Shown here piece after piece: positions 5,438-57,771 of a stretch of DNA of 58,008 nt; the first letter of the stretch is position 1, and each line of letters starts with the position of its first letter. Source of the stretch: a virus. The translations under genes were made by a program, and so were the position numbers. The stretch spans positions 1 to 58,008 of IMG/VR virus record IMGVR_UViG_3300029923_000022; one strand, written 5' to 3'. The notes beneath the pieces are model-generated. The model saw only the letters and a list, made by a program, of their open reading frames with translations, made no database searches and had not been told where the DNA came from.

Positions 5438-7621
5438 ATGGCAGATCCAAGTTTAATTAATAACGTTTTAGAAGCAGGAAAAAGATTAACATCAAAAGAA
5501 CAAATGTTAGGTAAAGGATTGAATATGCCTTTTAACGCTCTAAATTCAGGAGCAAGAAAAATAATGTTTTCTACACAGATGGATCATCGTGTAGATTTGT
5601 TTAACCCAGAAGCCCCATTAATAAGCACGGGGTATGAAAATAGATTTGGTGAATATACATCTTCTTTTATCAAATCTGATAGTAGATATATGGTAATTGC
5701 TAAGATAGAAAAATTCTCTCATCTTCCAGGGCATCATTATTATTTAGTGTTAAAGAAGTTTGATAGTGATGAATATGAAATTATTGAGAGAGTAATGTAT
5801 GAGCATGTTACTGAAGCTTACGGATATCTATATAATACAAAATATATGGATCATCTAAAGATTGGAAGTATAGTAGAAACTAATGATGTTATACGAAAAA
5901 GCACATCATATGATGAATATGATAATAGAATGGATGGGGTTAATTTAATAACAACATATCTATCTAATGAAGATACAAAAGAAGATGGAATTGTAGTAGC
6001 AAGGTCTGTAACTGAAAAGTTAGCATGTCCATTAATTAAGACTATCCAAATAATAATCAATGATAATGATATACCACTTAATATGTATGGCGATGATAAT
6101 ATATATAAAATAATGCCAGATATAGGAGAGAGCATAAAGAAGGGTATATTGTGTGCTATGAGAAGAGAGAAAAAAGAAGAATCATTATTTAATCAATCTC
6201 TTCAACATCTTCAATCATTAATGATGTCAGATGATAAGTTTATAGCAAAAGGACAAATTATAGATATAGATGTATACTGTAATAATCCTGAGATATTAAA
6301 AGAATCATACTATGCTACACAAATAAAATATTATAGTGATAATAGTTTTAGATTTATGAATGATATTGTAAATGTTATTAAACCTATAATAGAAGATAAT
6401 GTTAATAAGTGTAGTTATGAATTACAGAAAATATATTATGATTGTAAGAAGATAGTAGTAGATGGGAAGAAGTATATAAAAGATAAACCATTCTCTAATA
6501 CTATAATAAATATAACTATATTAGAGAAGAGTGTATTAGCAGTAGGAGATAAGATATCTAATAGATATGGTGGTAAAGGAGTAGTTTCTAAGATAAGAGA
6601 AGATGATCTAATGCCATTATTAAAAGATACAGGTGAGAGGGTTGAAGTAATATTTAATTCAGCAACATGTATAAATAGAGAAAATATAGGTCAATTATTT
6701 GAGACATCGCTAAACGATATATCTAATAAATTACTTCATTATATGGAGAATGTATTAGATACAGATGAATGTAATGAGATGTATAGAGATTTGGTTTATT
6801 TAACTAATAGGGAACAAGGCGAGAAGGTAGATGAATTATTATCTAGATTATCTCCTGAAGAACAGCATTATTTCTTTGACTCTGTAATATCAGATAGTGG
6901 CATAATGCTTAGTATGAAACCTATAAGTGATCCAATGAATATTGATATGCTGTCTGCAATATATGATAAATTTCCTTATATAAAACAGCATAAGGTAACA
7001 GTGCCACAAAGGGATTCTAATGGTAATGTAAGATATCTAGAAACTAGAAGAAGATTGACTTGTGGAAAACAATATATCTATAGATTAAAACAATATGCTG
7101 AAGAAAAGTTTAGTGCGACTTCACTTTCTTCAACAAATATAAGAAATGAAAATAGTAGAAGCTCTGCTAAAAAATCTTATAAAACAATATTTACAAAAAC
7201 TCCAATAAGATTTGGAGAAATGGAATCTGGAAACTTATTACATCTTGGTGCAGAAAATGTAGTTATTAACTTATTACTATATTCCGCATCTCCTAAAGGA
7301 AGAAGACTTGCTGAAGAATTATTAATTGGTAATCCGTTTGATATAAATGTTAAATTGGACGACCAATCTACAAATAGAGGTGTTGAAATTCTTAATGCAT
7401 ATTTATTAACAATGGGATTAAGAATAGAATTTGTAAAAACACAAAAAACTAAAAAAGCACCTATTAAGTTTACACCTATTATAGTTCCAGCAAATAGAAC
7501 TCCAATACGATTTGTTAATCCAGATGATAAGATGATTAAAGAGTATCTAGATAATTTTGGTAAGAAATCAAAATCACCTATTAAATTTGTTCCAATATCA
7601 TTTGTAGGAAGGACTGATTAA
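5438..7621 (+). CDS. RNA polymerase beta subunit, C-terminal half
   Basis: 727 residues matching the C-terminal half of bacterial RpoB. GDKISNRYGGKG at residues 370-381 carries the two catalytic-site lysines (372, 380). RFGEMESGNLL at about 590 matches the conserved RFGEME motif. Upstream, LITTYLSNEDTKEDGIVVARS corresponds to the region where bacterial beta has its conserved NFEDAI-type motif. Large phages of the phiKZ/AR9 type split beta and beta' into separate genes in this way; the N-terminal half is at 11860-13593 here. The C-terminal tail beyond the RpoB fold (residues about 674-722) is unusual: it carries APIKF, TPIRF, SPIKF and PISF in succession, repeats of the tag-like peptide found in other proteins of this window. 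The start is ATG 5438 with GAAGGGA upstream. Confidence 0.9.
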   Translation: MADPSLINNVLEAGKRLTSKEQMLGKGLNMPFNALNSGARKIMFSTQMDHRVDLFNPEAPLISTGYENRFGEYTSSFIKSDSRYMVIAKIEKFSHLPGHHYYLVLKKFDSDEYEIIERVMYEHVTEAYGYLYNTKYMDHLKIGSIVETNDVIRKSTSYDEYDNRMDGVNLITTYLSNEDTKEDGIVVARSVTEKLACPLIKTIQIIINDNDIPLNMYGDDNIYKIMPDIGESIKKGILCAMRREKKEESLFNQSLQHLQSLMMSDDKFIAKGQIIDIDVYCNNPEILKESYYATQIKYYSDNSFRFMNDIVNVIKPIIEDNVNKCSYELQKIYYDCKKIVVDGKKYIKDKPFSNTIINITILEKSVLAVGDKISNRYGGKGVVSKIREDDLMPLLKDTGERVEVIFNSATCINRENIGQLFETSLNDISNKLLHYMENVLDTDECNEMYRDLVYLTNREQGEKVDELLSRLSPEEQHYFFDSVISDSGIMLSMKPISDPMNIDMLSAIYDKFPYIKQHKVTVPQRDSNGNVRYLETRRRLTCGKQYIYRLKQYAEEKFSATSLSSTNIRNENSRSSAKKSYKTIFTKTPIRFGEMESGNLLHLGAENVVINLLLYSASPKGRRLAEELLIGNPFDINVKLDDQSTNRGVEILNAYLLTMGLRIEFVKTQKTKKAPIKFTPIIVPANRTPIRFVNPDDKMIKEYLDNFGKKSKSPIKFVPISFVGRTD

Positions 7622-7622
7622 A

Positions 7623-9911
7623 ATGAATGACATAATAAGGAAAGTTTTAGATGAAGTAAGACAAGGGAATAAAACTTTTCTTACTGATTTAGAAACTATG
7701 AGTAAGATAAACTCATATGTAGAAATGGTAATAAAATCAAATACACATTCCAATGATGATATAGAAAATATGAAAGGTATGTTAGAGATTTCTAACATAC
7801 TTTTTAATAACACAGATAGAGATTTTATATTATTAGAGGATGGGGTATATGATTTATTAATTGAAAAATGTAAAAAATATGATCCAAATTATTTAGTAGG
7901 AGCAAAACCTGTTTATTTTGCTCCTACAAATAATGACTCATTGACTAAACTAAAATCAAAAGTTATAAGATTTGTTGATCAAGATAAGATAGATGATATG
8001 TTATATGGAAATGATATATTCAAATATGAAGAAATAAAAAGAACTGATATATTGAAGAGTCCAATAACATTTAAGAATACTGATGTGATAGCTAAGAGAG
8101 TAGTAAATACAAAACATAACTATCCAAAATTAGTAGGGACTTTAGATAAGGGTAAATTTGTATTAAGTTCTCAAGCAAAAGAAAAAGGTGTATATGATGA
8201 TAATAATGTAAAAATATTAGAAAGGGATTTCTTTAAGAAACATATAGATGATGGAATCTTAGATCCAAATAGAAAGTTCTATATAGTTGCAGAATTAAAA
8301 TATGATGGAATTTCTGTTGAAGGAGATGTTACAAATCAGATAGAAGGAGGAAGAACTAGAGGAGATACAAATGAAGATATTGCAGCTGACCTAACTCCTA
8401 TATTAAGAGGTTATAGATTTAGATATGCTCCAATGATAGATGAAGCTTTTGGGATGAAATTTGAAGCTATAATGACTCATAATAATTTAGCAAAATATAA
8501 TGTAATCAAACAGAAAGATTATAAGAATTGTAGAACTGCTATCTCTGGATTATTTGCATCGTCTGATGCTCCACAGTTTAGAGACTTTATAACATTAGTA
8601 CCTTTAGCAACTTCTATAGAAGACATTGATAGACTTTCTGAAATAGAATTTATGAATAAGTATTACAATTCTGGAGAAAGATTAAGATATTCAGTATTGT
8701 ATGGTAACTATGTAGATATACTATTTCAGATAAAGAAATTTGTAGAAGAGGCAGAATATCTTAGACCATATATGCCTTTCATGTATGATGGAGTAGTGAT
8801 ATCTTATATAGAACCAGATCTCATAGATAAACTTGGAAGAGTAAATTCTGTTAATAAATATTCAATGGCAGTAAAATTTAATCCACTTAAGAAACAAGCA
8901 ATATTTATAGAATACAGATATACCGTAGGCCAAGATGGTGTAATAACTCCTATGATTTATTATACTGCAGTAGAGTTTTATGGCACAACACACAATCATT
9001 CTTCTGGTCATTCATATGAAAGATTTAGAACTTTGGCTTTAAGAAAAGGTGATATAATAGATGTAGAATATGTGAATGATGTTATGCCATATGTATCAAA
9101 ACCAGATAATTCACATAATCTAGAAAATACAAATCCAGTTGAAGTATTTCCTACAAAATGTCCTTCATGCGGAATAGTGCTAGAAATATCTGAATCAGGT
9201 AAATCTGCATTATGTTCTAATATGGCATGTAAGCAAAGAAATATAGCTAGAATAGTGAGTATGTTAAAGAAATTAAATGTTAAAGATTTCTCAGATGCTT
9301 ATTTGTTACAGATAGGTAAATATACATTATCGGATATGATGAATCTATCTGTAGATGAAATACAATTCTTAGGAGAGATTACTTCACAAAAGTTTATAGA
9401 AAGAATGAATCAATTAAAATTACAACCTATATATGATTATAAGATTATAGGAAGTCTTGGATTTACAGATATAGGTGTTAGAAAATGGAAGTTAATATTA
9501 AATAAATATACATTAGATGAGATACTATCTTTTACAGAAGAGCAACTAAGAGATGCTTTATTAAATATAAAAGGTATAGGTCCAGCTACTGTAGATACTA
9601 TAGTATCAGAATTTAAATTCTTTAAGGCAGATATAGATACTATACTTAAGATGCCTAATATACTAAAGTCTAAAGGAGTTAAGTCGGGTAAGTCTATAAG
9701 ATTTACTGGATTTAGAAATGAAGAATTAGTAAATACTTTAAATGATATGGGATATGATGCAAATGGAGATAGTGGTGTTACAAAATCAACAGATATATTA
9801 TTAGTTCCATTTGAAGGTTACACTAGTCCTAAGACAGTTAAAGCATCAGCTAATAATATTATGATAATTCCTATAAATGATTTTACTAATAATATGGATA
9901 AGTATTTATAA
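7623..9911 (+). CDS. ligA: NAD-dependent DNA ligase
   Basis: 762 residues, slightly longer than bacterial LigA (about 670). The adenylation motif AELKYDG has its lysine at 226, followed by EGGRTRGD. A four-cysteine zinc finger (C513, C516, C531, C536) is followed by helix-hairpin-helix repeats (for example NIKGIGPATVDTI) and a C-terminal BRCT domain (about 695-762). The enzyme seals nicks using NAD. The extra length is mainly N-terminal, in a linker at about residues 110-150 that holds KVIRFVDQDK and SPITF, copies of the tag-like peptide. ATG 7623 lies 1 bp after the RNA polymerase stop, with GGAAGG upstream. Confidence 0.93.
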   Translation: MNDIIRKVLDEVRQGNKTFLTDLETMSKINSYVEMVIKSNTHSNDDIENMKGMLEISNILFNNTDRDFILLEDGVYDLLIEKCKKYDPNYLVGAKPVYFAPTNNDSLTKLKSKVIRFVDQDKIDDMLYGNDIFKYEEIKRTDILKSPITFKNTDVIAKRVVNTKHNYPKLVGTLDKGKFVLSSQAKEKGVYDDNNVKILERDFFKKHIDDGILDPNRKFYIVAELKYDGISVEGDVTNQIEGGRTRGDTNEDIAADLTPILRGYRFRYAPMIDEAFGMKFEAIMTHNNLAKYNVIKQKDYKNCRTAISGLFASSDAPQFRDFITLVPLATSIEDIDRLSEIEFMNKYYNSGERLRYSVLYGNYVDILFQIKKFVEEAEYLRPYMPFMYDGVVISYIEPDLIDKLGRVNSVNKYSMAVKFNPLKKQAIFIEYRYTVGQDGVITPMIYYTAVEFYGTTHNHSSGHSYERFRTLALRKGDIIDVEYVNDVMPYVSKPDNSHNLENTNPVEVFPTKCPSCGIVLEISESGKSALCSNMACKQRNIARIVSMLKKLNVKDFSDAYLLQIGKYTLSDMMNLSVDEIQFLGEITSQKFIERMNQLKLQPIYDYKIIGSLGFTDIGVRKWKLILNKYTLDEILSFTEEQLRDALLNIKGIGPATVDTIVSEFKFFKADIDTILKMPNILKSKGVKSGKSIRFTGFRNEELVNTLNDMGYDANGDSGVTKSTDILLVPFEGYTSPKTVKASANNIMIIPINDFTNNMDKYL

Positions 9912-9927
9912 AAAAGGAGGTGTATTA

Positions 9928-10555: not shown

Positions 10556-10588
10556 ATAATATTATAAATTTCAAGGAGGAATTTGATT

Positions 10589-11867: not shown

Positions 11868-13593
11868 TGACATAACTCAAAGAAATTTCATCAAATATTT
11901 TACTGATGAAAATAGAGAACATTTTAATGAACAATTATTTTATAGAAATGAAGATGATATAATAGAAGATATTAAGAAGGTTATATTATCATGTCAGAGA
12001 AGCAGATACTTTGTTTTAAGAGTTCATCAATTTAAAGTAGTAGATGATTATAATGAGATTATGCAAATCTTATATAATTATGAAGAAAATCTAAATAGGA
12101 ACAAGACTAAGAAGAGAGATAATCAATATGATTTTGTAGACTTAAAAGTTACAGATATGAAATTATTGATAGTGACTTATTATATAGAAGCTAAAGAAAA
12201 ATTTGAATATGTTGATGTCATTATAGCAGTTCCTAGAATAGTTAATAAGTATTACTTTAGAATATCTGGAAATATATATTCAGCATTGTTTCAGTTAGTA
12301 GAGAGTACTTATAATAGTTCAACTTCAGCAGCTTCAAGAAAAGATAATATTACATTAAAAACAATATTTATGCCTATTAGAATATATAGAAATAATGTAT
12401 CCTTATTGACAACTTCTAATGAGGATGTAAAATGTGTATTCTATACAATAAGAGTATTTAATAAATCTTTCAATTCAGTAAAGCCATTCTTAGCAAGAGG
12501 TGGATTTTATAATGGTATGGCATATTTAGGATTGAAGTATATTTCAATAACAGAAACAGATCCTAATGATAAAGATTTATATACTTTTGAAAAACATGGC
12601 CTATTTGTAAGTGTACCGAGATATATATTTGATAGTGATGCATATACACAATCGTTTGTATATGGATTAATTGCCGCAATAAATAAAGAATGCACATATT
12701 CAAATATATTCTCTAAATACTATTGGCTTAAAATGTTAGGTGAAGATTTTAATAATTCTAGTGTGGATAAAGGAGTATCAATATTAGATTCTTTAGAGTC
12801 AGTATATGATATATTGACAAAAGAAAGTCTTCATCTTCCAGAATATCAGAAACAAAATATTTATGATATTCTAAAATGGTTATTAAGAGAATTTTCAAAT
12901 CTAAAATCTAAAGATAATTTAGATGTTACTGTAAAAAGAATAAGGTTCTCAGAATATATTGCATCGCTGTATGCAATGAAACTATCTACTGGTATCTATA
13001 GAATATCGGATAATAGAAGGAAGAATATAAACATAGATAGTATAAAGAGAATAATAAGAATACCACCTATGTATCTTATAAGTGCAATAACTAAATGTAA
13101 TTTAGTAAACTATAGAAATTTGGTTAATGATTTAGATTCTACTTTAGCTTTAAAATATTCTAGAAAAGGTATTTCTGGAATGGGAGATCAGAGTAGTAAA
13201 TCAGTACCTAAAATATACAGATATATAGATTCGTCTAGTATAGGTATATTTGATTTAGATGATTCACCTAAATCCGACCCAGGAATATCTGGTACAATAA
13301 GTCCATTAGTTAAATTAAGTAATTGGTCTTTTTCAGATTATAGTGAACCAAATGAATGGGAAGCTGGATTTAAAGATTTGACAAAGAACTATAAAGCATT
13401 AGTTGGTAAGAAAGAAGTAATAACTCTTCAAAAAGAATTATTAGATATAGAAAATGAAGAGTTAGAAAATATAGTAGATGACTCTATATATGCTGTAAAA
13501 GAATTAATGTCAGCTATAAGATTTATAGAAGATGATGTTATTGAAGATACAGACATAGATCCTAATATGGTTGAAGAGGAGGATTTATTATAA
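11860..13593 (+). CDS. RNA polymerase beta subunit, N-terminal half
   Basis: 577 residues. VPRIVNKYYFRISGNIYSA near residue 125 corresponds to the conserved RpoB segment around the 'FIINGxERV' motif. The stretch from about 420 (DSTLALKYSRKGISGMG through SSIGIFDLDDSPKSDPGISG) matches the rifampicin-region and PxETPEGPNIG segment of bacterial beta in order, though diverged. With the C-terminal half at 5438-7621 it makes a split beta, as in phiKZ/AR9-type phages; gene order is reversed relative to the protein. Near the C-terminus SAIRFIEDD is a copy of the tag-like peptide, followed by an acidic tail. ATG 11860 has GGAG upstream and overlaps the previous gene. Confidence 0.82.
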   Translation: MNDDITQRNFIKYFTDENREHFNEQLFYRNEDDIIEDIKKVILSCQRSRYFVLRVHQFKVVDDYNEIMQILYNYEENLNRNKTKKRDNQYDFVDLKVTDMKLLIVTYYIEAKEKFEYVDVIIAVPRIVNKYYFRISGNIYSALFQLVESTYNSSTSAASRKDNITLKTIFMPIRIYRNNVSLLTTSNEDVKCVFYTIRVFNKSFNSVKPFLARGGFYNGMAYLGLKYISITETDPNDKDLYTFEKHGLFVSVPRYIFDSDAYTQSFVYGLIAAINKECTYSNIFSKYYWLKMLGEDFNNSSVDKGVSILDSLESVYDILTKESLHLPEYQKQNIYDILKWLLREFSNLKSKDNLDVTVKRIRFSEYIASLYAMKLSTGIYRISDNRRKNINIDSIKRIIRIPPMYLISAITKCNLVNYRNLVNDLDSTLALKYSRKGISGMGDQSSKSVPKIYRYIDSSSIGIFDLDDSPKSDPGISGTISPLVKLSNWSFSDYSEPNEWEAGFKDLTKNYKALVGKKEVITLQKELLDIENEELENIVDDSIYAVKELMSAIRFIEDDVIEDTDIDPNMVEEEDLL

Positions 13594-13594: not shown

Positions 13595-13819
13595 ATGATA
13601 AAATATTTTATATTTTCAAGAGAACAATTAAACATGAAAAGAAACGTCGCTAAAAAGATAAGCCAGGAATATACACCTGGCTCTGTATTTATGGGAAATA
13701 AACCAAAAGAATTTACTGATATGATAGATGACCCGAAGTTAGCAAAGTTCTCCGATTCTATTGTAATTATCAGTGGTGATCCAACTACTATTAAATATAA
13801 AGCAGGAAGTGATTTCTAA
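13595..13819 (+). CDS. Hypothetical protein, 74 aa
   Basis: ATG 13595 is 11 bases after AGAGGAGGA, which lies in the end of the preceding gene. The N-terminal half is basic (REQLNMKRNVAKKIS). Its TAA overlaps the ATG of the next gene (TAATG). No recognised domain. Its position between an RNA polymerase subunit and a zinc-ribbon protein suggests, but does not show, a transcription role. Confidence 0.65.
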   Translation: MIKYFIFSREQLNMKRNVAKKISQEYTPGSVFMGNKPKEFTDMIDDPKLAKFSDSIVIISGDPTTIKYKAGSDF

Positions 13820-14124
13820 TGTGTAAGAAAGTTATATCAATACTTGGTCCTACTGAATGCCCACATTGTCACTCTGCTTTAGTGCTATATAGGGAACAAA
13901 CAACATCAGTTGGTTTAGATAAAAATGGAAATGGTATACCAACTGATAATAATATGTTTGAATATGAGGAAGTATTAAAATGTGAAAATTGTTTTAGTAA
14001 ATTTCCATGTATACAATTATCTAATGGTAGATATACAATCTATACTGATTTACAGATGAGACTAGATATATATAGAACTGTAGCAAGTATAAATAGAGTA
14101 AGAAGTCCATTTATAAGGAGTTGA
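13819..14124 (+). CDS. Zinc-ribbon protein, 101 aa
   Basis: Two cysteine pairs, CPHC at about residue 15 and CENC at about 56, form a probable zinc ribbon. The start overlaps the previous stop (TAATG). Small zinc ribbons are common in RNA polymerase-associated and nucleic-acid-binding proteins. It sits three genes from the RNA polymerase beta half, and further zinc ribbons occur at 14712 and 54326, also next to polymerase genes. The N-terminus MCKKVISILGP resembles a degenerate form of the tag peptide, with I in place of F. Confidence 0.7.
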   Translation: MCKKVISILGPTECPHCHSALVLYREQTTSVGLDKNGNGIPTDNNMFEYEEVLKCENCFSKFPCIQLSNGRYTIYTDLQMRLDIYRTVASINRVRSPFIRS

Positions 14125-14128: not shown

Positions 14129-14731
14129 ATGAATATAGAATTTAAAACTATGTTTAATGTAATATATGGTAGATTGTTTGGAGACTTTCAAGCTTTAACA
14201 ACTGAGATTCATCCAGATATATTAAAAATAATAAAAGTTACTCATGGTAAAACATTGGATGGAAAAATGTTTTCATTAAAACTTGAGAATGGTGTAGATA
14301 TTTATATAATAAAAGAATTAAATTCTTTTATATATATGAATAGTCTGTTCGTAGATAATAAAAGATCTGTGGTATGTAGTATACCATATGACTTATATAA
14401 TTACGATCAAAAAGAAATAGTAAAAATAATTAAATCGCTATACACATATATTTGTAATCAATTGATTACAAAACCAGGAGATACATTATATAATAAAATT
14501 ACAAGTATAGCTCCCACAATATTAACATTTCATACATTAAGACATGTATGTGAAGATTTAGAAATAGTTGATTTTATAGATAATGATGATAACTTTAAAG
14601 AAATAACGGTAGAAGTTTTATATGATTCATTAGACTATTCTATAAATGAACTATTAGATTACTGTGGAATATTTGCAATCTGTACTGAGAAAATAGAAAA
14701 AGAAGTTAATGATGAAGATAAAGACGATTAG
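14129..14731 (+). CDS. Hypothetical protein, 200 aa
   Basis: ATG 14129 with AAGGAG upstream, 4 bp after the previous stop. A mixed alpha/beta soluble protein with an acidic C-terminus ending EVNDEDKDD. No motif recognised. The 3' end overlaps the following zinc-ribbon gene by about 20 bp. Confidence 0.7.
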   Translation: MNIEFKTMFNVIYGRLFGDFQALTTEIHPDILKIIKVTHGKTLDGKMFSLKLENGVDIYIIKELNSFIYMNSLFVDNKRSVVCSIPYDLYNYDQKEIVKIIKSLYTYICNQLITKPGDTLYNKITSIAPTILTFHTLRHVCEDLEIVDFIDNDDNFKEITVEVLYDSLDYSINELLDYCGIFAICTEKIEKEVNDEDKDD

Positions 14732-15002
14732 TTTTAAGCGTCAAGATCATTGTGTAAAATGTAATGCAGATAGATCCATAGAGCTATATGATATATATGA
14801 TAAACCAATAAATTATTCATATTTTCTAGATAGATTAAATAGCGTAAGTTTAGATAGTTTTAATCGACGAGAGTTATCTTATATGCAATGCAAAAAATGT
14901 GGTGTTGTATATGATATAACTTGGGAGAATAAAATACCAGAACCATTGATTAATAAGAATACACTATTCATATTTTTGAATAGTGTATTTAAAAAAATAT
15001 AA
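14712..15002 (+). CDS. Zinc-ribbon protein with N-terminal tag-like peptide, 96 aa
   Basis: The start is ATG 14712 or the adjacent in-frame ATG 14709. The protein opens with MKIKTISFKRQDH, a clear copy of the [I]-[S/R]-F peptide, and then carries CVKC (about residue 15) and CKKC (about residue 60), a probable zinc ribbon. It overlaps the 3' end of the previous gene. The last codons lie inside a 13-bp-arm hairpin at 14957-14988. Function unknown; nucleic-acid binding is likely from the zinc ribbon. Confidence 0.68.
   Translation: MKIKTISFKRQDHCVKCNADRSIELYDIYDKPINYSYFLDRLNSVSLDSFNRRELSYMQCKKCGVVYDITWENKIPEPLINKNTLFIFLNSVFKKI
14957..14988. repeat. 13-bp inverted repeat inside the end of a gene
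   Basis: AATACACTATTCA / TGAATAGTGTATT with a 6-base loop, within the last codons of the 14712-15002 gene. The + strand follows with an A-rich tract rather than T, so it is not a standard terminator for this gene. On the minus strand a T-tract follows the hairpin. Confidence 0.6.
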
Positions 15003-19671: not shown

Positions 19672-19998
19672 AAGAAAATAATATCATTTATAAATAATGG
19701 AGGAAAAGAAATTATGACAAAAGGTCATCCAAGGTGGGATGAATTTTGTAAGAGATTAAAAGGAAGTGAAGGTTGTAATTTTAGATATGATGAAAATGGT
19801 AAACTTATATGGAATTGTGGTGGTGGAGAAGATAAATCATTTGCAATAAAAATTCTTGAAACCATGCCAGAAATAGATATTCAAAGGAGTATTGAATATT
19901 TTGAGACTAGTGGTGGATGGTGTGATTGTGAAATAATTTTAAATGTTATGGGATTAATAAAGTTTTTATATACTGACCCAAGTAAATTTATTATATAA
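19669..19998 (+). CDS. DUF2695-like protein with N-terminal tag-like peptide, 109 aa
   Basis: From residue 17 the protein resembles the DUF2695 family in my recollection: HPRWDEFCKRLKGSEGCNF, GGGEDKSFA, and a C-terminal GGWCDCEIILNV with paired cysteines. In front of it is MKKIISFINNGG, a copy of the tag-like peptide. An ATG at 19714 (MTKGHPRW) is preceded by its own GGAGG at about 10 bases, so the ancestral start may be internal and the tag a later extension. The upstream ATG 19669 also has AGAGGTG. Function of the family unknown. Confidence 0.65.
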   Translation: MKKIISFINNGGKEIMTKGHPRWDEFCKRLKGSEGCNFRYDENGKLIWNCGGGEDKSFAIKILETMPEIDIQRSIEYFETSGGWCDCEIILNVMGLIKFLYTDPSKFII

Positions 19999-20045: not shown

Positions 20046-20971
20046 TATTGTGATACGTCTGGATTATCAATAACAACTAACTTATAAGTTTGATCTAGAT
20101 TAGTATTTCTAGCAATACCATTCCTTACATCAATAGATGTATCGTTTAAGAACATAGGATCTGGTCTATCAGCCCCAGGAATTGATTCTCCTGTTTGTGT
20201 ATTTATAACATCAAACTTTCTTTCACCAGTAGTAGAATTGTATAATACTACAGTTTTTATATTAGGATTTTCCATCATTAACATTTTATTTACAGATGGA
20301 TTCATAGTATAACCTTGATTATTTTGGTACATATCTGTACCCATTACTCCACTATTCAACAACGTAAGTTCATTTTGTGAAGGTGGATTATATGCATTAG
20401 GAGTATTATAAGTACCAACTGGTGTAGAGATGTATGCATTGTACATATCCATTATTCTCTTATCATCATCTTGATCTGCATCACCCATTTTAAGATCTTT
20501 TATTCTCTTAATTTCTAAGTTATGGCAATCAGTTATCGTTTTATTTATTTCTCTTATTGCTGTAACTTTAGTAGTTATTAGTGATGACATTGTATTAGTA
20601 AGTAAAGTCATATAATCATATTTTCTTTTTAGTGTTTTAGATTGTCTTATCAGATCTAATTCACCTTTCATTTCTGATTGTAGTGTATCAATCTGAACTA
20701 TAGAATTTTTTAACAATCCTTCTGTTTCATCATAACTATCTCTATATGGTTCAGCTGTTTGATACATAGGTAAATCTTTACCACTATCTCCTGTTAATAA
20801 TTCTTGACCATCTACAAGTTTCTTCCTAGGTCTACCCCTTTTCTTTTTTTCATCATCTGGTATATAATCTATTGGCAATGAAGATTGTTTACTTGTAAAA
20901 AAATCTACGTTAATTATACTTGGAACATTATGATCTAGTCCTGAATCATCAAAACTTATTATTTTTTGCAT
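20042..20971 (-). CDS. AT-hook and coiled-coil protein with N-terminal tag-like peptide, 309 aa
   Basis: Start ATG at 20971 (MQKIISFDDSG), 9 bases after GGGAGG; an ATG at 20977 is too close to it. The first residues carry the IISF tag-like peptide. Residues about 45-55 read KKKRGRPRKK, a classical AT-hook that binds the minor groove of AT-rich DNA. A helical, coiled-coil stretch (about 85-165) follows, then a polar, N/P/G-rich region and a beta-type C-terminus. It is the only minus-strand gene between two + blocks. A DNA-organising or DNA-associated role is plausible given the AT-hook. Confidence 0.7.
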   Translation of the reverse strand: MQKIISFDDSGLDHNVPSIINVDFFTSKQSSLPIDYIPDDEKKKRGRPRKKLVDGQELLTGDSGKDLPMYQTAEPYRDSYDETEGLLKNSIVQIDTLQSEMKGELDLIRQSKTLKRKYDYMTLLTNTMSSLITTKVTAIREINKTITDCHNLEIKRIKDLKMGDADQDDDKRIMDMYNAYISTPVGTYNTPNAYNPPSQNELTLLNSGVMGTDMYQNNQGYTMNPSVNKMLMMENPNIKTVVLYNSTTGERKFDVINTQTGESIPGADRPDPMFLNDTSIDVRNGIARNTNLDQTYKLVVIDNPDVSQY

Positions 20972-48345: not shown

Positions 48346-48897
48346 TTACAAAATAATTTGATCATTAAAATATTTATTAGATAAGACTTCTACAGGAATA
48401 AATATTATTCTAAATGGAATATCTATACCTAATATGTAATCAGTTCTATCTTGTAATGAATTGAAAATTTTAATGTATATATCTTCTTTAAGATTAAAAT
48501 CTTTTATAAAAGATTCTTTCTGTATTTTTTCTTTATTTAAATTATAATAAAGAGTTTTTGTAGATATTATTAGTGCACTTTTTAGTTCAAAATCCTCTAG
48601 CTTTTTTATAGTTTCTAATCTTACTTTTTTGCCATACTCTTCATCAACATATTTTATACAAGCCATTTTATAATAATCTTCTTCAGCAATTGATACCATA
48701 TCATCAATCAAACCTTCTAACAGCAATTTATAAAATACTATAGGAGTATGGACATAAATCTCTGCAACATTAACGCCATTAAAAGATATAACCTTATACT
48801 CTTTTTCAATTTCTTCATTAATACCATAACTATGATTTATTTCTTTAATCCGCTGTCCTAACCCTTCTATTTTTACATACTGTTCAATTTCCATCAT
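48346..48897 (-). CDS. Hypothetical protein, 183 aa
   Basis: Start ATG 48897, 10 bases after AAAGGAG; the open frame extends to a TTG that is too close to that site. Soluble, mixed fold. KVISFNGV near residue 35 resembles the tag-like peptide but lies in a predicted strand, so it may be chance. Promoter-like element upstream at 48931. Function unknown. Confidence 0.68.
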   Translation of the reverse strand: MMEIEQYVKIEGLGQRIKEINHSYGINEEIEKEYKVISFNGVNVAEIYVHTPIVFYKLLLEGLIDDMVSIAEEDYYKMACIKYVDEEYGKKVRLETIKKLEDFELKSALIISTKTLYYNLNKEKIQKESFIKDFNLKEDIYIKIFNSLQDRTDYILGIDIPFRIIFIPVEVLSNKYFNDQIIL

Positions 48898-49509: not shown

Positions 49510-49905
49510 TTATTCTTTTTTATCAAACGATATTACTTTAAGCTTCATTTCCTCAATACCTTTTTCTATCATAGTATCAAAATTAATAAATTTTACATCT
49601 TTATTTGATATTAGAAATGCACTAGCATCTAAAGAGTTTAATTTTTCACTACCTATTTCTTTTACTACTAAGATTTCATCATCTAATAAAAGTTTTTGAA
49701 TACTAGTTATAACTTTAAGATCATCATCATCAGATTGTAAATCTATTATTCCATCACAAGAAAACATAGCTTTTGAACTATCATCAATATCTCTTCCAAA
49801 TATAATAATATTACTAGACGGTATAGATTCTACAAGTTCTATATATGCATCTATATCTTTAACACCTACAGAATTTGATAAAGTTTTTCCATAATAATCA
49901 GCCAT
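49510..49905 (-). CDS. Hypothetical protein with C-terminal tag-like peptide, 131 aa
   Basis: ATG 49905 with AGGAGTAG upstream. Alternating strands and helices in the pattern of a small alpha/beta domain (IPSSNIIIFGRDIDDSSK, then DEILVVKEIG). It ends with KLKVISFDKKE, a copy of the tag-like peptide at the extreme C-terminus. No catalytic motif recognised. It lies 24 bp after the 250-residue gene on the same strand, so the two are probably co-transcribed. Confidence 0.68.
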   Translation of the reverse strand: MADYYGKTLSNSVGVKDIDAYIELVESIPSSNIIIFGRDIDDSSKAMFSCDGIIDLQSDDDDLKVITSIQKLLLDDEILVVKEIGSEKLNSLDASAFLISNKDVKFINFDTMIEKGIEEMKLKVISFDKKE

Positions 49906-51225: not shown

Positions 51226-52518
51226 TAAATATGAGGTGCGTTATACAGTAATGTATAATTGAAAACTCTGTGAACTGCTGGGAGTCCCTAAGAGCTTAAT
51301 ATACTACAACGTGATCTGTAAAGATGAGCGTGAATGTGGTCGAAAGACAGAAAGAAATATTAAGATAAGGTATGGTGAGAATCCTAACTCTTATAAACAA
51401 TGGGTAATCATAGCAGCCAAGCTGCCAATTATAATAAAAGATGATATATCACTAACTTTATATTTATTAAGAGGTGATATTAATGAAAATTATTAGTTTT
51501 TTAAATAAAGAAGACGAAATGCCTATATATTGGTATAAATTAAACTGTGATAATATTAAGGATAATTTATATGAAATATCAGAAACATCTGAAATTAGAT
51601 CTGCTAAAACAAAGAAAATATTAAAACAAAGAAATCATAAATCTAGAAGTAGTAGTTATAAAGACATAGCATTAAGTACAAATATTATTAAAGGTAAAAG
51701 TTTTTTAGTTCATAGATTAGTAGCTAAAACTTTCATTCCTAATCCATACAATAAACCTGAAGTAAATCATAAAAATTATGATACAAAGAAAAACTATTGT
51801 GATAATTTAGAATGGATGACACATAAAGAAAATGTAGAATATTCTAAAAATAATATAAAAAGAGGAGAAGATAATATAAATTCATCTTTAACAAATGATC
51901 AGGTTTATAAAATATGTAATATGCTACAAGAAAATAAATCTTATAGTGAAATATTATTTAATATAGGAATGGAAGATAGTGATAATAATAGAGATACTGT
52001 AGGTAATATTAAACGAGGTATAACTTATAAAAATATATCTAAACAATTTAACTTATCTAATGCTAATGCAAAATCTTCTAAATATGATATAAATACAATT
52101 AGAGATATATGTAGATATATATTTAATGGATATGACTATATAAAAATAGCAGAATTAATAAATGAGGATATTTCAGATATAAATAAAAAGAAATCATTTT
52201 ATGAATTTATTCGTCTTATTAAAAATAGAAAAAATTATAAAGATATATCATCTGAATATAATTGGTAGAAGGTTCAACGACTATCGAAAGCTATAAATCC
52301 ATAAGAACTATTAATTTAGCAGGGTTGAAAATAAGGTATAGTAATGTATACACGAAGTGAGTAGAGTACACTAGAAGTCTAGTGGAAGTGCAGAGCGTCC
52401 TAGTAAAATAGGATGAAGATATAGTCTCTTCTTCGTATGAAAGTACGAGCATTCTAAATAAATGATATATAGTGAGAGTATAATATTCATTATACAACGA
52501 CTATATAGTAAGATTAAG
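51226..52518 (+). mobile_element. Group I intron in the DNA polymerase gene
   Basis: 1293 bases between the two halves of polymerase motif B. Exon 1 ends in T and the intron in G, as group I splicing requires. Core-like elements are present: TGGGTAATCATAGCAGCCAA (51401-51420, P/P4-like), GGTTCAACGACTATCGAAAG (52271-52290, Q/R-like) and AAGATATAGTCTC (52416-52428, S/P7-like). Exon end AACGC can pair with GCGTT near 51238 as the P1 guide. The endonuclease gene 51483-52268 lies between the P and Q/R elements. Boundaries could shift by a base or so. Subgroup not assigned. Confidence 0.85.
51483..52268 (+). CDS. Intron-encoded HNH homing endonuclease with N-terminal tag-like peptide, 261 aa
   Basis: ATG 51483 with AAGAGGTG upstream. 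NUMOD4-like start (IYWYKLNCDNIKDNLYEISET), then an HNH motif: VHRLVAKTFIPNPYNKPEVN, then HKNYDTKKNYCDNLEWMT, as in I-HmuI-type enzymes. The C-terminal part (about 135-250) is helical, probably DNA binding. The first 12 residues, MKIISFLNKEDE, are a copy of the tag-like peptide set before a natural-looking start (MPIYWYKL). The enzyme would cut intronless alleles at the polymerase motif B site and copy the intron. Confidence 0.88.
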   Translation: MKIISFLNKEDEMPIYWYKLNCDNIKDNLYEISETSEIRSAKTKKILKQRNHKSRSSSYKDIALSTNIIKGKSFLVHRLVAKTFIPNPYNKPEVNHKNYDTKKNYCDNLEWMTHKENVEYSKNNIKRGEDNINSSLTNDQVYKICNMLQENKSYSEILFNIGMEDSDNNRDTVGNIKRGITYKNISKQFNLSNANAKSSKYDINTIRDICRYIFNGYDYIKIAELINEDISDINKKKSFYEFIRLIKNRKNYKDISSEYNW

Positions 52519-54192
52519 TTATATGGATCAATTGGTCAAGTATCTTGCTTATATTATAATGTTAATATTGCATCATCTGTTACAGTTCAAGGTAGATCAT
52601 GTATATCAACAGCAATGCTTCAATTTGAAATGTTTCTAGCAAATAATTCTAATTTTGGATCTCTTAATGAAGTAATTACATTTATAGATAATATAGTTAC
52701 TGAAAAAAGAGAATATTCTGATAGATTAATATTAGATAATGATATAACTATGACTGAAAGTTTTAATAAGGTAATGATGACTTGTGGATTTGATTATATA
52801 CCATCAGAGGAAGATCTATTAATAGTATGGGAAATATTTGGTAGATTAAAACAAGAAGACTGGAATAGATTATATTATAAGAATAATCTATATGATTTTG
52901 TAAATAATAGATCTATGACAAATGCATTAATTTATATATTAACAGAATTACATGAACCATTCTTAGATCCAAATGATGTACCATCAGAAATAAAAGTAGA
53001 GTTAGATGAATTTTTATCATTTCTAAAAGAATACGTTTATTATTCATATCAGATAATAGATAGATTAGATAAAGCAGAAAATATGATAAGAAAAGTAGTA
53101 GCTCTAGGAGATACTGATTCAAATATAGTTTCATTAGATGCATGGTATAGATTTACATTAGATAAAGTAGTGGACATACCAATGGCTATTAAAAAGAAAA
53201 AATTAAAAGCAATTTCTTTTTTAGAAACTGATGAATTCGGAGATTCTGATAAATTAAAAGTAATAGATTTTGTTGAAGATGATAGAGATTATGATTTTAA
53301 GAATGATGAGATTATAAGTATTCATAAAAGTATGAATGTATTAAGTATTATCCCTCAAGAAGGAGTAAGATATTCTATAATAAATATTATGGCATATTGT
53401 CTATATAAATTAATTAATGACTACATGTGTAAATATACACAGAATTCTAATTCATATGATCCAAAGAAAAAATGTTTACTTATTATGAAAAACGAATATT
53501 TATTTAAACGTGTATTATTAACCCTTGCTAAGAAGAATTATGCAACAATTCAAGAATTACAAGAAGGTAAATTCTTAAATGGATTATTAGATATAAAAGG
53601 ATTGCCTATAGCTAAAACTACATTAAATATTAAGACTCAAGAAAAGCTACAAGAGATTTTATTTGAAGATGTATTAAATTCAGATGAGATAGATCAATTA
53701 AGAGTTTTAAAAGATTTAGCTAAAGTAGAGAAAGAAATATTTGATTCTTTATTAAGTAAGAATAAAGAATATTATAAACCATTAACTATAAAGTCTATGA
53801 ATAGTTATGATGATCCATTTAGATTAAGTGGAATAAAAGCAAGTTATGTTTGGAATGTATTAAGATATGATAATATAGCAGCTATTGATTTAGAAGTTAG
53901 AAATAATATAGATGTTATAAAAGTTGATATAACTCAAAAGAATGTAGAAAAGATAAAAGAATTATATCCAGATGTTTATGATAAAATAATACCATTACTT
54001 AAAGAAAAACCTTTTATAAAAGGAATAACAGCAATGGCAGTCCCAAAGAATAGCGAGTTACCAGATTGGACATTAGAGTTTATAGATTATCCAACAATAA
54101 TAAATGATAATCTTAAGAACTTTCCATTAGAGTCTATTGGATTATGTAAAATGAATGATACAAATAATTATAGTAATATATTAAAACTATAA
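52519..54192 (+). CDS. Family B DNA polymerase, C-terminal half, exon 2
   Basis: 557 residues after the splice junction (697 in total with exon 1). It opens with LYGSIGQ, completing motif B. Motif C is GDTDS at whole-protein residues 337-341, the two catalytic aspartates being 338 and 340. The thumb region follows. About 30 residues past motif C a linker holds KAISFLETDE and KVIDFVEDD, copies of the tag-like peptide. A 65-bp stretch at 53478-53542 (LIMKNEYLFKR) recurs in the gene at 54569. An ATG at 52462 gives an apparent separate frame, but that part lies in the intron. Terminator follows at 54198. Confidence 0.85.
   Translation, partial: LYGSIGQVSCLYYNVNIASSVTVQGRSCISTAMLQFEMFLANNSNFGSLNEVITFIDNIVTEKREYSDRLILDNDITMTESFNKVMMTCGFDYIPSEEDLLIVWEIFGRLKQEDWNRLYYKNNLYDFVNNRSMTNALIYILTELHEPFLDPNDVPSEIKVELDEFLSFLKEYVYYSYQIIDRLDKAENMIRKVVALGDTDSNIVSLDAWYRFTLDKVVDIPMAIKKKKLKAISFLETDEFGDSDKLKVIDFVEDDRDYDFKNDEIISIHKSMNVLSIIPQEGVRYSIINIMAYCLYKLINDYMCKYTQNSNSYDPKKKCLLIMKNEYLFKRVLLTLAKKNYATIQELQEGKFLNGLLDIKGLPIAKTTLNIKTQEKLQEILFEDVLNSDEIDQLRVLKDLAKVEKEIFDSLLSKNKEYYKPLTIKSMNSYDDPFRLSGIKASYVWNVLRYDNIAAIDLEVRNNIDVIKVDITQKNVEKIKELYPDVYDKIIPLLKEKPFIKGITAMAVPKNSELPDWTLEFIDYPTIINDNLKNFPLESIGLCKMNDTNNYSNILKL
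53478..53542 (+). repeat. Polymerase segment duplicated 1.2 kb downstream
   Basis: This segment matches 54721-54785 at 54 of 65 positions by my count and in the same reading frame (LIMKNEYLFKRV versus LIMKDEFLFKRV, then KKN). Confidence 0.75.
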
Positions 54193-54197
54193 AAAAT

Positions 54198-54228: not shown

Positions 54229-54325
54229 TGCTATTATAAAAAGTTTTTTATAAATATAAACAATCCTTCTAGGAACATAGAAAAAGTATTTCTATTTTAA
54301 CATTATAATAGGGGGGTGATATTTT

Positions 54326-54487: not shown

Positions 54488-54510
54488 TACAGTAACTACT
54501 AATATTATTT

Positions 54511-54538
54511 CTAATTATATATTATTATATTGTAAGAA
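54511..54538 (+). promoter_or_regulatory. AT-rich promoter-like element
   Basis: CTAATTATATATTATTATAT matches the repeated element (18195, 18878) in its first half; about 30 bases before the 54569 start codon. Confidence 0.5.
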
Positions 54539-54568
54539 TTAATGTATAATTAATGAAAGGAGATAAAT

Positions 54569-54838: not shown

Positions 54839-54859
54839 ACTAAAAGAGGAGCGTTTTAA

Positions 54860-56926
54860 ATGTTAGAAAATCTTAATAACTATGGTCCTTATGCAGAATT
54901 GGTAAAGAATAAAAAGATGAAAGTTTATACAAAGGATTTTAATAAAGATAATATAGATAATCACTTCTTTTGGATATTAAATATATTTAGAGATGGGATT
55001 GAAACTGATGAAGTTCAAAAAGCTTTTGTAAATGTTGAATTTAATAATGCTGTAAATATAGATTTAACTTTACAAGATTTACTCTTTAATGTACTTATGT
55101 GGGATATAATAGTTAAATCAGATATGATAATAGAACCAAAGCATTTATTCTTTGGAAAATCTATAACACAAAATAGTATTAAGAAATATGTTGATGTATA
55201 TTTCTTAGAAGAGAAAAGAAAATCTACATCTAATATAAAACTAAATAACATGATAGATGATATGATGTTTAAATGGTGTTATATAGATGAGTTTAACGGC
55301 TATCTATCAAATACAATAAATTTAGAAGACTTCATTAAACTAATGAAAGAGAATAGTGAATTCAATAGATTAATACATGCAGATTTAACTGGTACTCCAG
55401 TTGAAGAAGTAAAAGCAGTAGGAATGGAATATGCTAATAAGATGATAGATATAATACAAAAATCAGATCATTGTTTAGCAGATTTCTTTAATGCTGGCGA
55501 AGGTGTAAATCCAAAACAATTTAAAGAAGTAGCAATCAATATAGGAACTAAACCAGATGGTAGAGGTGGGGTATATCCTACATTGATAAATACGAACTTT
55601 TTAACTGGTGGAGTAAATGATACATTATCATTCTTTATAGAAGAGTCTGGTGGTAGAGTTGCACAGATTATAGTAGAAGGTAATGTAGGTATTTCAGGAT
55701 ACTTTGCAAGATTGTTAGGACTTAATAATATAGATACTATAATGTATCCAGATCATAATTATGTGTGCGATACTAAGAATTTTGAAGAAATATTTATAAC
55801 TAATGCAATAGTGCAGTCTAAATTTGAAAATAGATATTATAGACTTAGTCCTAATGGACAAGAATATCTATTGAAAAATACTACCAAAGATCTAGTTGGA
55901 AAGAAAATATATCTACGTTCCCCAATGACTTGTGCTTCACATGCTTCAGGTCATGGGATATGTTATAGATGTTATGGAGATTTAGCATATACAAATAATG
56001 ATATCAATATAGGAAAAATAGCAGCAGAAGAAGTATCTTCTACACTTACTGGAAGAATGCTTCAAGCTAAACATCTATTAGAATCTGCAGTAAAAGTATT
56101 TAAGTGGCCAGCTGAATTTAATAGATTCTTTGATTTAGATTATGATATTATAAAAGTAACTTCAGACGATTCTGTAAACTTAAATAATTATAAATTATTA
56201 ATAGATAATATTAGTTTGCAAAGTGAATATGAAGATGTAGAATATAATGAATACGTTACTAAATTTGAAGTATTATCACCTACTGGTGAAATATTTAATA
56301 TCCATACTCAAGATGCTGATGAACTTTATATAACATCTGAGTTGAATACAATAATAAGAGATAAAGCTACTGAGATAGATGGAAAGGTAGCAGTAGATTT
56401 TAAAGATTTATATGAAGCTCCATTGTTTATATTAGAGATTCAGAATTATGATCTATCAGCTACATTAAAAGCAATAAAAGATATTATTGATAAAACCGAT
56501 ATAACAAACAACTTAAACAGAAATGATATCCTACAACGATTAGTAGAGACGTTTATAGAGGGTGGAATCAATGTAATGTCCATTCATGGTGAAGTAATAT
56601 TAAGTAATCAATTAAGAAATGTAGATAATATATTAGAAAAGCCAGAATGGAAATATCCAAATGAACCATACAATCTATTGACATTAAAACAATCACTATC
56701 AAATAATCCATCTATTATAGTATCATTATCATATGAAGGATTATCGAAAATGTTATATAATCCTTTGACTTATAGAAAGAACAAACCTTCCTTTATGGAT
56801 TTATTCTTCATGAAACGCCCCTCAGCCTATCTATCTGGTAAGGATGCGGTTAAAAAATATAAAGATGATGGATATATAGAAAAAGATAATAAGAAAGTTA
56901 TAAGATTTGTAGAAGATCCTAAATAA
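54860..56926 (+). CDS. RNA polymerase beta' subunit, C-terminal half
   Basis: 688 residues. EESGGRVAQIIVEGNVGISGYFARLL corresponds to the RpoC bridge-helix and trigger-loop region. LRSPMTCASHASGHG, then CYRCYGDLA, matches the C-terminal zinc site; C358, C368 and C371 are visible. IGKIAAEEVSSTLTGRMLQAKH matches the RpoC segment EAVGIIAAQSIGEPGTQL. The catalytic NADFDGD aspartates belong to the N-terminal half, which is not in this window. The C-terminus ends KKVIRFVEDPK, a copy of the tag-like peptide. ATG 54860 with AGAGGAG upstream. Split beta' is known in phiKZ/AR9-type phages. Confidence 0.88.
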   Translation: MLENLNNYGPYAELVKNKKMKVYTKDFNKDNIDNHFFWILNIFRDGIETDEVQKAFVNVEFNNAVNIDLTLQDLLFNVLMWDIIVKSDMIIEPKHLFFGKSITQNSIKKYVDVYFLEEKRKSTSNIKLNNMIDDMMFKWCYIDEFNGYLSNTINLEDFIKLMKENSEFNRLIHADLTGTPVEEVKAVGMEYANKMIDIIQKSDHCLADFFNAGEGVNPKQFKEVAINIGTKPDGRGGVYPTLINTNFLTGGVNDTLSFFIEESGGRVAQIIVEGNVGISGYFARLLGLNNIDTIMYPDHNYVCDTKNFEEIFITNAIVQSKFENRYYRLSPNGQEYLLKNTTKDLVGKKIYLRSPMTCASHASGHGICYRCYGDLAYTNNDINIGKIAAEEVSSTLTGRMLQAKHLLESAVKVFKWPAEFNRFFDLDYDIIKVTSDDSVNLNNYKLLIDNISLQSEYEDVEYNEYVTKFEVLSPTGEIFNIHTQDADELYITSELNTIIRDKATEIDGKVAVDFKDLYEAPLFILEIQNYDLSATLKAIKDIIDKTDITNNLNRNDILQRLVETFIEGGINVMSIHGEVILSNQLRNVDNILEKPEWKYPNEPYNLLTLKQSLSNNPSIIVSLSYEGLSKMLYNPLTYRKNKPSFMDLFFMKRPSAYLSGKDAVKKYKDDGYIEKDNKKVIRFVEDPK

Positions 56927-56943
56927 CAATGAAGGTGAATTAA

Positions 56944-57771
56944 TTGGATAAAGAAGTAGAATATTCGATATATGGAGATTGGGAAATGATAGAGCGTAAT
57001 TCTGGAATTAAAAAATTTAATTCCATACTGGCTACTTATAAATGTAAAAGATGTGGGAATCTAAAAAATATGATTCCCTCTCAACTAATTCATTATAGAG
57101 TTGTTTGTGAAACTTGTAAAAATAAATTCTATAAAAATCATTATATAGGAATGACATTTGGTAAATTAAAAATAGTAGAATATTTGGGTTTGAAAGATAA
57201 ATATTATTATTATAAATGTATATGTTCTTGTAAAACAGATATATCGGATAGGGAATTTAGACTTTCTAATCTATTAAATGGCAATAGTGAATCATGTGGA
57301 TGCGAACAAAATAAACAAACTCATGGATTAACAAATACTAGAATATATAAAATATATAGAGGAATGATAAGAAGATGTTATAATTTAAATGAAAGTAACT
57401 ATGATAGATATGGTGGTAGAGGAATATTTATTTGTGATGAATGGCTAATAGAAGAGAATGATCAAGGTCTTAAGAACTTTTATAATTGGTCTATTAGGAA
57501 TGGATATAATGAAGATCTATCTATAGATAGAATTGATAATGATGGCCCATATGCACCATGGAATTGTAGGTGGACTACTGATAATGTACAAGCAAATAAT
57601 ACTAGTACAAATCATATTATAAATATTAATGGATATGATTATACTATATCACAGATTGCTTATAGATATTCTATAGAGTATAACTGGTTGTCAAATAAAA
57701 TAAACAAAGGAATATCTATAAATGAAATTATAAAAGATAAAAAAGAAAAACCTATACGTTTTATTGAATAA
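56944..57771 (+). CDS. Free-standing homing endonuclease with C-terminal tag-like peptide, 275 aa
   Basis: TTG start at 56944 with AAGGTGA upstream. Two cysteine clusters (CKRCG, CETC, then CICSC) in the N-terminal half suggest zinc fingers. The central HGLTNTRIYKIYRGMIRRCYN, then YDRYGGRGIFICDEW, IDRIDNDGPYAPWNCRW pattern is typical of AP2/HNH-type phage endonucleases. A NUMOD1-like helix-turn-helix (about 225-260) follows. The extreme C-terminus is KPIRFIE, a copy of the tag-like peptide. It lies 17 bp after the beta' gene; homing endonucleases often sit beside such conserved genes. Confidence 0.82.
   Translation: MDKEVEYSIYGDWEMIERNSGIKKFNSILATYKCKRCGNLKNMIPSQLIHYRVVCETCKNKFYKNHYIGMTFGKLKIVEYLGLKDKYYYYKCICSCKTDISDREFRLSNLLNGNSESCGCEQNKQTHGLTNTRIYKIYRGMIRRCYNLNESNYDRYGGRGIFICDEWLIEENDQGLKNFYNWSIRNGYNEDLSIDRIDNDGPYAPWNCRWTTDNVQANNTSTNHIININGYDYTISQIAYRYSIEYNWLSNKINKGISINEIIKDKKEKPIRFIE

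Follow-up and report, generated by a model that had tools for sequence, protein, structure and literature searches.

The stretch analysed here (the window, 58,008 nucleotides, IMG/VR record IMGVR_UViG_3300029923_000022) belongs to a phage in which a short peptide, here called the tag, recurs on the ends and linkers of otherwise unrelated DNA- and RNA-handling proteins. Bases 1-56,951 of this 58-kb window are identical (100%) to positions 179,234-236,184 of G001, an IMG/VR record of 236,184 bases from the same phage, and the window end corresponds to G001 1-1,192 with one mismatch. The phage genes include a split family B DNA polymerase, a NAD ligase, two multisubunit RNA polymerase (RNAP) sets, one virion (vRNAP) and one non-virion (nvRNAP), and a tubulin-like protein. 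Among named phages, its large terminase is closest to those of Bacillus BpSp, Goe21, PBS1 and AR9 and of Staphylococcus jumbo phages (30-37% identity). Metagenomic contigs yielded relatives at 42-57% identity over the query proteins, a fragment at 76% (G006) and a more distant group (G009, G011 and G013) with 35-36% identity in the beta-prime C-half. The tag sites of the window, preceded by one untagged gene examined below as a candidate binding partner, are the following.

541..1434, + strand, OG28, untagged protein of 297 residues, predicted to be all-helical
7457..7603, + strand, nvRNAP beta C-half tail, four copies (APIKF, TPIRF, SPIKF, VPISF) beyond the conserved fold
7959..8072, + strand, DNA ligase variable linker, KVIRF (7959-7973) and SPITF (8058-8072)
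13510..13524, + strand, nvRNAP beta N-half, SAIRFIEDD close to the C-terminus
13828..13842, + strand, small CxxC protein, N-terminal variant KVISI, resembling by eye the tagged OG90 proteins of relatives
14721..14735, + strand, small CxxC protein with sub-threshold zinc-ribbon matches only, N-terminal KTISF
19675..19689, + strand, protein of 109 residues with a weak DUF2695 match, N-terminal KIISF
20951..20965, - strand, OG10, conserved protein of 311 residues, N-terminal KIISF
22941..22988, + strand, DNA polymerase N-half C-terminal tail, KVISF and RIIDF
49525..49539, - strand, protein of 131 residues, C-terminal KVISFDKKE
51486..51500, + strand, HNH endonuclease, N-terminal KIISF
53206..53271, + strand, DNA polymerase C-half linker, KAISF and KVIDF
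56894..56908, + strand, nvRNAP beta-prime C-half, C-terminal KVIRFVEDPK
57748..57762, + strand, putative homing endonuclease (so labelled by the sequence-only reading), C-terminal KPIRFIE

The sequence-only reading of this window had proposed a transferable tag with the pattern [KST]x[IV][RSKD]F, and the peptides that it named were found again, exactly or a few bases away. The 61 window genes have 23 matches to the pattern, compared with a mean of 6.46 (standard deviation 2.50, maximum 14) in 1000 within-protein shuffles, a 3.5-fold enrichment; by this shuffle expectation, about 6 of the 23 are chance. With an acidic residue in the next five positions, there are 15 matches versus 3.4 shuffled (maximum 10). 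Nine of eleven control patterns were near or under their shuffled mean and two were above it, [KST][IV]x[RSKD]F (12 vs 6.7) and [KRSTAP]x[IV]xF, which includes the tag (54 vs 37.7). The whole G001 record has 56 matches versus 27.6±5.0 (maximum 43, n=300), about twofold, and within 15 residues of a protein end it has 16 versus 3.5 (maximum 9, n=300), more than fourfold. The placement at the ends and linkers of DNA- and RNA-handling proteins thus exceeds composition-matched shuffles, as had been expected. As also described before, the four copies in the nvRNAP beta C-half lie beyond the conserved fold; among 216 phage records, the 12 listed have a match that stops at residue 591-673, short of the tail. 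In the ligase linker, the relatives place their own tag. Three variants fall outside the pattern yet at tag positions of the relatives, KVISI (CxxC protein at 13819), SPITF and VPISF, and the gene at 48346 has a KVISF internal to the protein.

Some matches to the bare pattern are not counted as tags. A further TPIRF (7199-7213, within FTKTPIRF, 7190-7213) lies inside the conserved beta C-half fold, is kept in aligned relatives and resembles the tag by chance. The statement that fibres and RecA-like proteins have no tag-like copy is correct as worded, but the bare pattern does occur, in UvsX (TLVDF) and three tail-region proteins. These matches were judged to be chance, in the tail proteins because two of the three have a G006 ortholog without the match, whereas the three terminal tags that could be tested are kept. 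The words KWGF and G.E.IP are enriched in G001 as strongly as the tag and may represent repeat-protein or paralog families instead.

Orthologs were counted over twelve genomes with lenient patterns and no position filter. These counts are partly circular, the per-genome patterns having been picked after some of the proteins had been seen: the tag was found in the polymerase N-half (10/12), a superfamily 2 (SF2) helicase (10/11), ligase and beta C-half (9/10 each), beta-prime C-half and polymerase C-half (8/11 each), beta N-half (8/10), the fifth nvRNAP subunit, presumed to confer promoter specificity (7/10), OG10 (6/11), and a DnaB-like helicase and one HNH family (5/8 each), with some matches off the usual place, such as that at residue 22 of the G010 beta N-half. 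The tagged set consists of the polymerase halves, ligase, two helicases, four of the five nvRNAP subunits, HNH endonucleases and small CxxC proteins.

Counts by category used strict patterns in ten genomes and only those ortholog groups that match an AR9 protein (76 of 207), labelled from the AR9 orthologs, and they leave out G003, G006 and unlabelled proteins. On this basis 27 of 49 nvRNAP proteins are tagged (1.66 sites per 1000 residues), as are 39 of 125 proteins of replication and repair (1.02), 8 of 16 HNH proteins and 10 of 121 others. The vRNAP has one tagged protein of 45 (0.04 sites per 1000 residues), in a class that includes OG34, whose top AR9 match is an endonuclease and whose second match is the vRNAP protein gp188. 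Virion and packaging proteins, which had been proposed to lack the tag, have 5 of 186 (0.05); the sole vRNAP match and two of these five stem from the permissive G001 pattern. Because the virion and non-virion RNAPs are related enzymes, their contrast serves as a within-family control; this split had not been noticed in the window alone.

Furthermore, nine ortholog groups were used to train profiles, at a threshold that allows about two false sites per genome, and the profiles were applied to the other proteins of ten genomes. They found 94 sites versus about 20 expected, with training patterns chosen after the first word lists were known. Eight of the genomes gave 8 (G001), 21 (G014), 8 (G019), 12 (G017), 16 (G016), 7 (G021), 9 (G004) and 6 (G010) sites. 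Of these, 65 are no more than about 25 residues away from an end; the same zone contains 18% of all residues. The 94 sites include those of three G014 HNH proteins starting MKTFMTR, MNVFMQR and MKSFMIR, small G016 proteins starting MLKRGMIY and MIRGMTY, and the C-termini of OG67. The HNH_3 domain occurs at 19 places in eight genomes, five of which (four in G010, one in G015) are outside called open reading frames and were excluded; nine of the remaining 14 proteins carry, close to an end, the tag of the genome to which they belong, and one of the five others starts MYRPITF, near the window tag.

The window pattern itself is not enriched in relatives at about 50% identity (18 vs 20.1 shuffled in G003, 3 vs 4.9 in G004). 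The sequence-only reading would have counted relatives without the peptide at these positions as evidence against a tag. The relatives do lack it there, but a different peptide, shared across each genome, stands in its place, which strengthens the docking idea; this turnover between lineages had been missed. The same tails and linkers carry FMxR, MCxIV, GMxY, WxPVxF, xPMxF, LFHK, KPF or PFTI, depending on the relative. The tag positions of G003 have the tails KPIIVTE, TPIIVAD and CPIVISE, those of G004 have WxPVxF with acids, and the polymerase N-half tails of further relatives have repeats of LFHK, MC words, GMxY, FMxR and [KR]PF. Alignments with the G003 orthologs end where the tag starts: at residue 664 of 688 in the beta-prime C-half (tag at 679), 601 of 639 in the polymerase N-half (tag at 607) and 505 of 525 in the SF2 helicase (tag at 507). 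Contigs reached through OG28 add variants that recur across beta C-half, ligase and beta N-half, namely P[LMV]x[TRE]F (L214), PMxF (L215), PFTI (L220), PF[EST]I (L224) and PIxF (L222), with looser P[MI] forms in L230. In the distant G009, the beta C-half tails have KLFVFLD, KLFVNV, KLFIPIED and LLFTPVTD, the ligase QLFVF and DnaB GLFVYV.

Blind word discovery, with no prior pattern and with proteins counted against local shuffles, gave as top words K.FM.R in G014 (18 proteins, 0 expected; FMxR, 28 vs 1.7), MC.IV in G017 (11, 0 expected), L.RGM in G016 (9, 0 expected; GM.Y, 21 vs 2.7) and W.PV.F in G004 (7, 0 expected). When three shuffled genomes were made per genome, the tag word clearly exceeded the best shuffled word in these four genomes. 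In G017, MC.IV reached 24.6 versus at most 19.4 shuffled, ranking behind two EMV words, which may be a variant of the tag. In AR9 and S6 the top word was not the tag and no word stood out.

In a matrix of nine tag patterns and thirteen genomes, most patterns are highest in their own genome or its sister: FMxR in G014 (36 vs 2.0 shuffled) and its sister G019 (14 vs 1.8), MCxIV in G017 (12 vs 0.1), GMxY in G016 (32 vs 3.0) and WxPVxF in G004 (8 vs 0.0). The exceptions are GMxY in G014 and G017 (10 and 12, vs about 5), [KR]PF[IV] in G003 (6 vs 1.1), the window pattern in G015 (27 vs 18.6) and G017 (37 vs 24.8), and the G003 pattern, which peaks in G001 and G015 and not in G003. Tag residues are better kept than their flanks between sister phages, with 83% versus 53% identity for G014 and G019 (9 of 12 sites matched), 76% versus 60% for G001 and G006 (3 of 5 matched, the two unmatched being the tail-protein matches) and 65% versus 50% for G010 and L215 (3 of 5 matched). 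In a UvsX tree, where good support is limited to 3 of the 16 inner branches and the G019 row is a mis-hit (a contig without called UvsX), close relatives have similar tags, as seen in an xPMxF/xPIxF group, a PFTI/PFEI pair and a KVISF/PLVTF pair (84/78 support).

The unit that recurs is a peptide and not a DNA sequence. In-frame palindromic insertions are known in Rickettsia, and a translated dispersed DNA repeat, or chance, could be imagined here too; we give this next to no probability. In G014, G016 and G017 all 80 matched segments are distinct in DNA, with a mean pairwise identity of 52-60% including flanks (one G014 pair reaches 93%), and the codon choice of the tag is close to that of the genome. 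In G001, both types of serine codon, TCN and AGY, are used in the tag. The similar DNA that a dispersed in-frame repeat would leave at its copies was not found, and the shuffle controls speak against chance.

Here it is concluded that the peptide is a real lineage-specific docking or sorting tag, unreported in the open literature searched, which included few subscription papers. A peptide that is common within a genome, sits at fixed positions of unrelated proteins and is replaced as a set would be expected to have a single binding partner. It is therefore proposed, as the probable explanation, that the tag serves for docking to a partner that co-evolves with it and is probably encoded by the phage, and that this partner gathers the enzymes of transcription, replication and homing at the phage DNA. 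The peptide, which is located in variable tails, termini and linkers, would act as a short linear docking motif; its rough shape, as read from the alignments, is x-[P/hydrophobic]-hydrophobic-x-[F/Y/I/R/K], in many cases with acidic residues after it. One partner would read it, most likely a phage protein, since such rapid change would not be expected of a host factor. Binding would bring the nvRNAP, the replisome and the homing endonucleases to the phage DNA, and the vRNAP and structural proteins, which carry no tag, would be left free for the particles for which they are bound. The two to five copies on the polymerase N-half and beta C-half may provide multivalent binding. Tag and partner presumably change together, giving each lineage its own tag at unchanged positions, and the pressure for this change could come from rival phages, to whose endonucleases a common tag would be of benefit; such a pressure has also been proposed for import into the phage nucleus (PMC12908238).

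Several observations weigh against this proposal, in addition to the circularity already mentioned. The Fisher p of 3.6e-9 for the difference in tagging between nvRNAP and vRNAP overstates certainty, the orthologs not being independent. By the strict counts, beta-prime N-half, SbcC, primase and Dda have no tag (RusA and RNase H have none either), UvsX has one in ten, a stray match, and the topoisomerase groups have 1/7, 0/7 and 0/2. The absence from UvsX, SbcC, primase, Dda and topoisomerase, which in the relatives had escaped the sequence-only reading, is unlike a plain signal for all proteins at the DNA. In the blind discovery with shuffled genomes, KVI.F of G001 was marginal (22.5 vs 21.8 for the best shuffled word, with two other words ranking higher), and in G021, G010, G015, G005, G003 and G009 the top word was another one and did not stand out; in these six the putative tag is supported by where it sits and by its repeated occurrence in the proteins expected to carry it. 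Also, the tag is weak in G003 (8 vs 7.0 shuffled) and, genome-wide, in G009 (LF[VIT]x[VILFQ], 15 vs 9.9 overall and 7 vs 0.9 near ends), no clear tag was seen in the L235/L236 region, which holds few of the usual carriers, and the trained profiles found 3 sites in G015 and 4 in G005, close to the two expected. A pooled test on polymerase-tail words gave z values of 0.6-6.0 in eight genomes; it was diluted by unrelated words and had no repeated word in G003, and the trained profiles were used instead. The literature search returned no experiment on these phages, and neither of the two partner candidates examined, OG28 and OG45, is established.

Two settings of the proposed docking, import or recruitment into a compartment and a DNA-bound hub, are about level, so that of the earlier interpretation the transferable tag stands and the choice between a compartment signal and a clamp-like hub is not settled. 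A compartment accounts for the exclusion of the vRNAP and structural proteins and for the tagged endonucleases, and a hub accounts better for the untagged UvsX, SbcC and topoisomerases. In its narrowest form the partner would be a DNA-bound ring or processivity factor and the tag a PIP-box-like motif, with no compartment; this reading, whose probability overlaps with that of the general proposal, is on the unlikely side, though worth keeping in view. Polymerase, ligase, helicases, RNA polymerase and nucleases resemble the clients of a clamp, whose binding the missing tags of UvsX and the topoisomerases would suit better than they suit an import signal. T4 couples its clamp gp45 to both polymerase and RNA polymerase through short C-terminal peptides, and the replication and repair enzymes here carry the motif on ends that are probably flexible, judging from their poor conservation. 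However, the consensus is not conserved across the relatives, we know of no clamp motif that turns over wholesale between relatives at 50% identity, and the fast-evolving core protein OG45 has a low-confidence model with no fold match.

A partner could also be dispensed with, if the tags associated with each other, multivalently, into a condensate. The several copies on the polymerase N-half and beta C-half and the alternating hydrophobic pattern agree with this, and all copies in a genome would need to change jointly; but many carriers, such as the HNH enzymes and small CxxC proteins, have a single terminal copy, which favours docking elsewhere and leaves self-association improbable. Binding to a host protein, with the lineage differences reflecting differences among hosts, is rated lower again. 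A polymerase scan of bacterial genome contigs returned no relative that would point to the hosts, but in bacteria docking hubs like the beta clamp are conserved and would hardly require motifs as unlike as FMxR, MCxIV and WxPVxF in one clade. That a phage protease uses the tags as cleavage sites or degrons is very improbable: the variable tails are probably exposed, but cutting a few residues from the end of many HNH and small proteins would have little effect, linker copies would sever enzymes, and the virion proteins, the usual clients of prohead proteases, have no tag.

Regarding the docking partner, OG28 seemed to fit at first. It is present beside UvsX in those tagged genomes whose sequence includes the locus, usually directly after the tubulin-like gene (not in G015), and is absent from AR9, S6 and G009. 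A search of 29 records found it in 16, and three unclassified Myoviridae entries have structural relatives. Its model is an all-helical repeat (pLDDT 83.6), with a best Foldseek E of 0.015 to a designed armadillo protein and a best Z of 6.2 to API5 (root-mean-square deviation 3.4 over 102 residues); the predicted likeness to armadillo or karyopherin structures is weak and within the noise for such folds. As a universal receptor OG28 was rejected, G009 seeming to be tagged without it; it is also missing from G011 and G013. L235/L236 has an OG28 relative (27% identity) although no clear tag was seen there. OG45 (G001 63580-64311), next to a PC4-like gene for a single-stranded DNA-binding protein, shares with OG5 the fastest rate of divergence among the 77 core groups. 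Its model is of low confidence (mean pLDDT 68.9) without a fold match, and G009 has, by eye, a look-alike at the same place that profiles miss. OG45 is a lead only.

Compared with known systems, PIP-box and beta-clamp motifs and the gp45-binding peptides of T4 are likewise short, hydrophobic and placed on the tails of polymerase, ligase and nucleases, and in T4 RNA polymerase partners also carry them. However, all these motifs are conserved over long distances, whereas the tag is replaced between relatives. No clamp was identified in these phages, in which no clamp profile search was made. Should the compartment reading hold, a eukaryotic nuclear localisation signal would be a further parallel, as a transferable peptide that chooses the proteins admitted to the compartment of the genome; the tag differs in having no basic cluster, in its wholesale change between relatives and in a receptor that is so far only postulated. 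AR9, of the AR9/PBS1 jumbo phages of Bacillus and Staphylococcus, has orthologs of the polymerase halves, the ligase, the helicases and the two multisubunit RNAPs; no tag was seen in the ends of the eight AR9 proteins inspected. In Staphylococcus phage S6, with 140 of 267 kb available, VKxNF words near C-termini (8 proteins vs 0 shuffled) come mostly from neighbouring proteins of similar size and were not counted as a tag, and none was seen at the end of the polymerase N-half. These neighbouring proteins (L202-L203, about 46,800-78,000) share a VKxNFK-like C-terminal end, which may reflect paralogy or another short signal.

Profiles for the chimallin ChmA (phrog_4795) and for PicA (phrog_3141), which we take to be phiKZ gp69, recovered phiKZ and matched none of 15 other records (11 relatives, AR9, BpSp, S6 and phiR1-37), some of which are fragments and in which remote homologs may lie below profile reach. 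Import by PicA in Chimalliviridae likewise picks genome-handling proteins, including a homing endonuclease, in a lineage-specific manner (PMC11087766, PMC12908238, PMC11620839). The phiKZ nucleus imports proteins in a species-specific way, for which no conserved signal sequence was found, a surface patch being thought to be recognised (PMC11087766), in contrast to the plain linear tag found here, and the phiPA3 endonuclease gp210 enters its own nucleus and not that of phiKZ (PMC11620839). A review predicts that co-infecting phages diverge in import selectivity, excluding each other's homing endonucleases (PMC12908238). In these phages, the selection of genome-handling proteins, with the vRNAP and structural proteins left out, is a statement about the distribution of the tag, not about localisation. 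AR9 is placed outside Chimalliviridae (PMC13282480), and a comparative study describes the classical clamp as absent from viruses with a divergent polymerase group (PMC7824862), taken to include this phage.

Among the other genes of the locus, the window contains the 3' part of the tubulin/FtsZ-like gene (window 1-523, G001 178554-179756), with a Pfam Tubulin match at E 2.2e-6, slightly below the curated cut-off. This gene recalls PhuZ, although no chimallin match was found. The tail-region protein encoded at 32893-34239 of the window consists of internal repeats, and G001 has related DNA at about 75.7-76.8 kb.

In its fullest form, the docking proposal would make the tag a heritable password, one peptide per lineage admitting the nvRNAP, the replisome and the resident homing endonucleases to a chimallin-free compartment around the phage DNA. 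The password would be rewritten across about two dozen proteins because foreign endonucleases able to read it would be deadly, and resident ones would have to adopt the local version; this extended scenario is tentative and, taken whole, rather doubtful. The choice of proteins at jumbo-phage DNA is an open question, and these phages form a clade in which a sorting or docking code can be read from the sequence. Lineage-specific tags on homing endonucleases are the trace that a conflict over selectivity between co-infecting phages would be expected to leave. Additionally, a single short motif that changes in concert across many proteins provides a test bed for the co-evolution of motif and receptor, and the tag offers a way to predict unknown members of the replication complex from the ends of their proteins.

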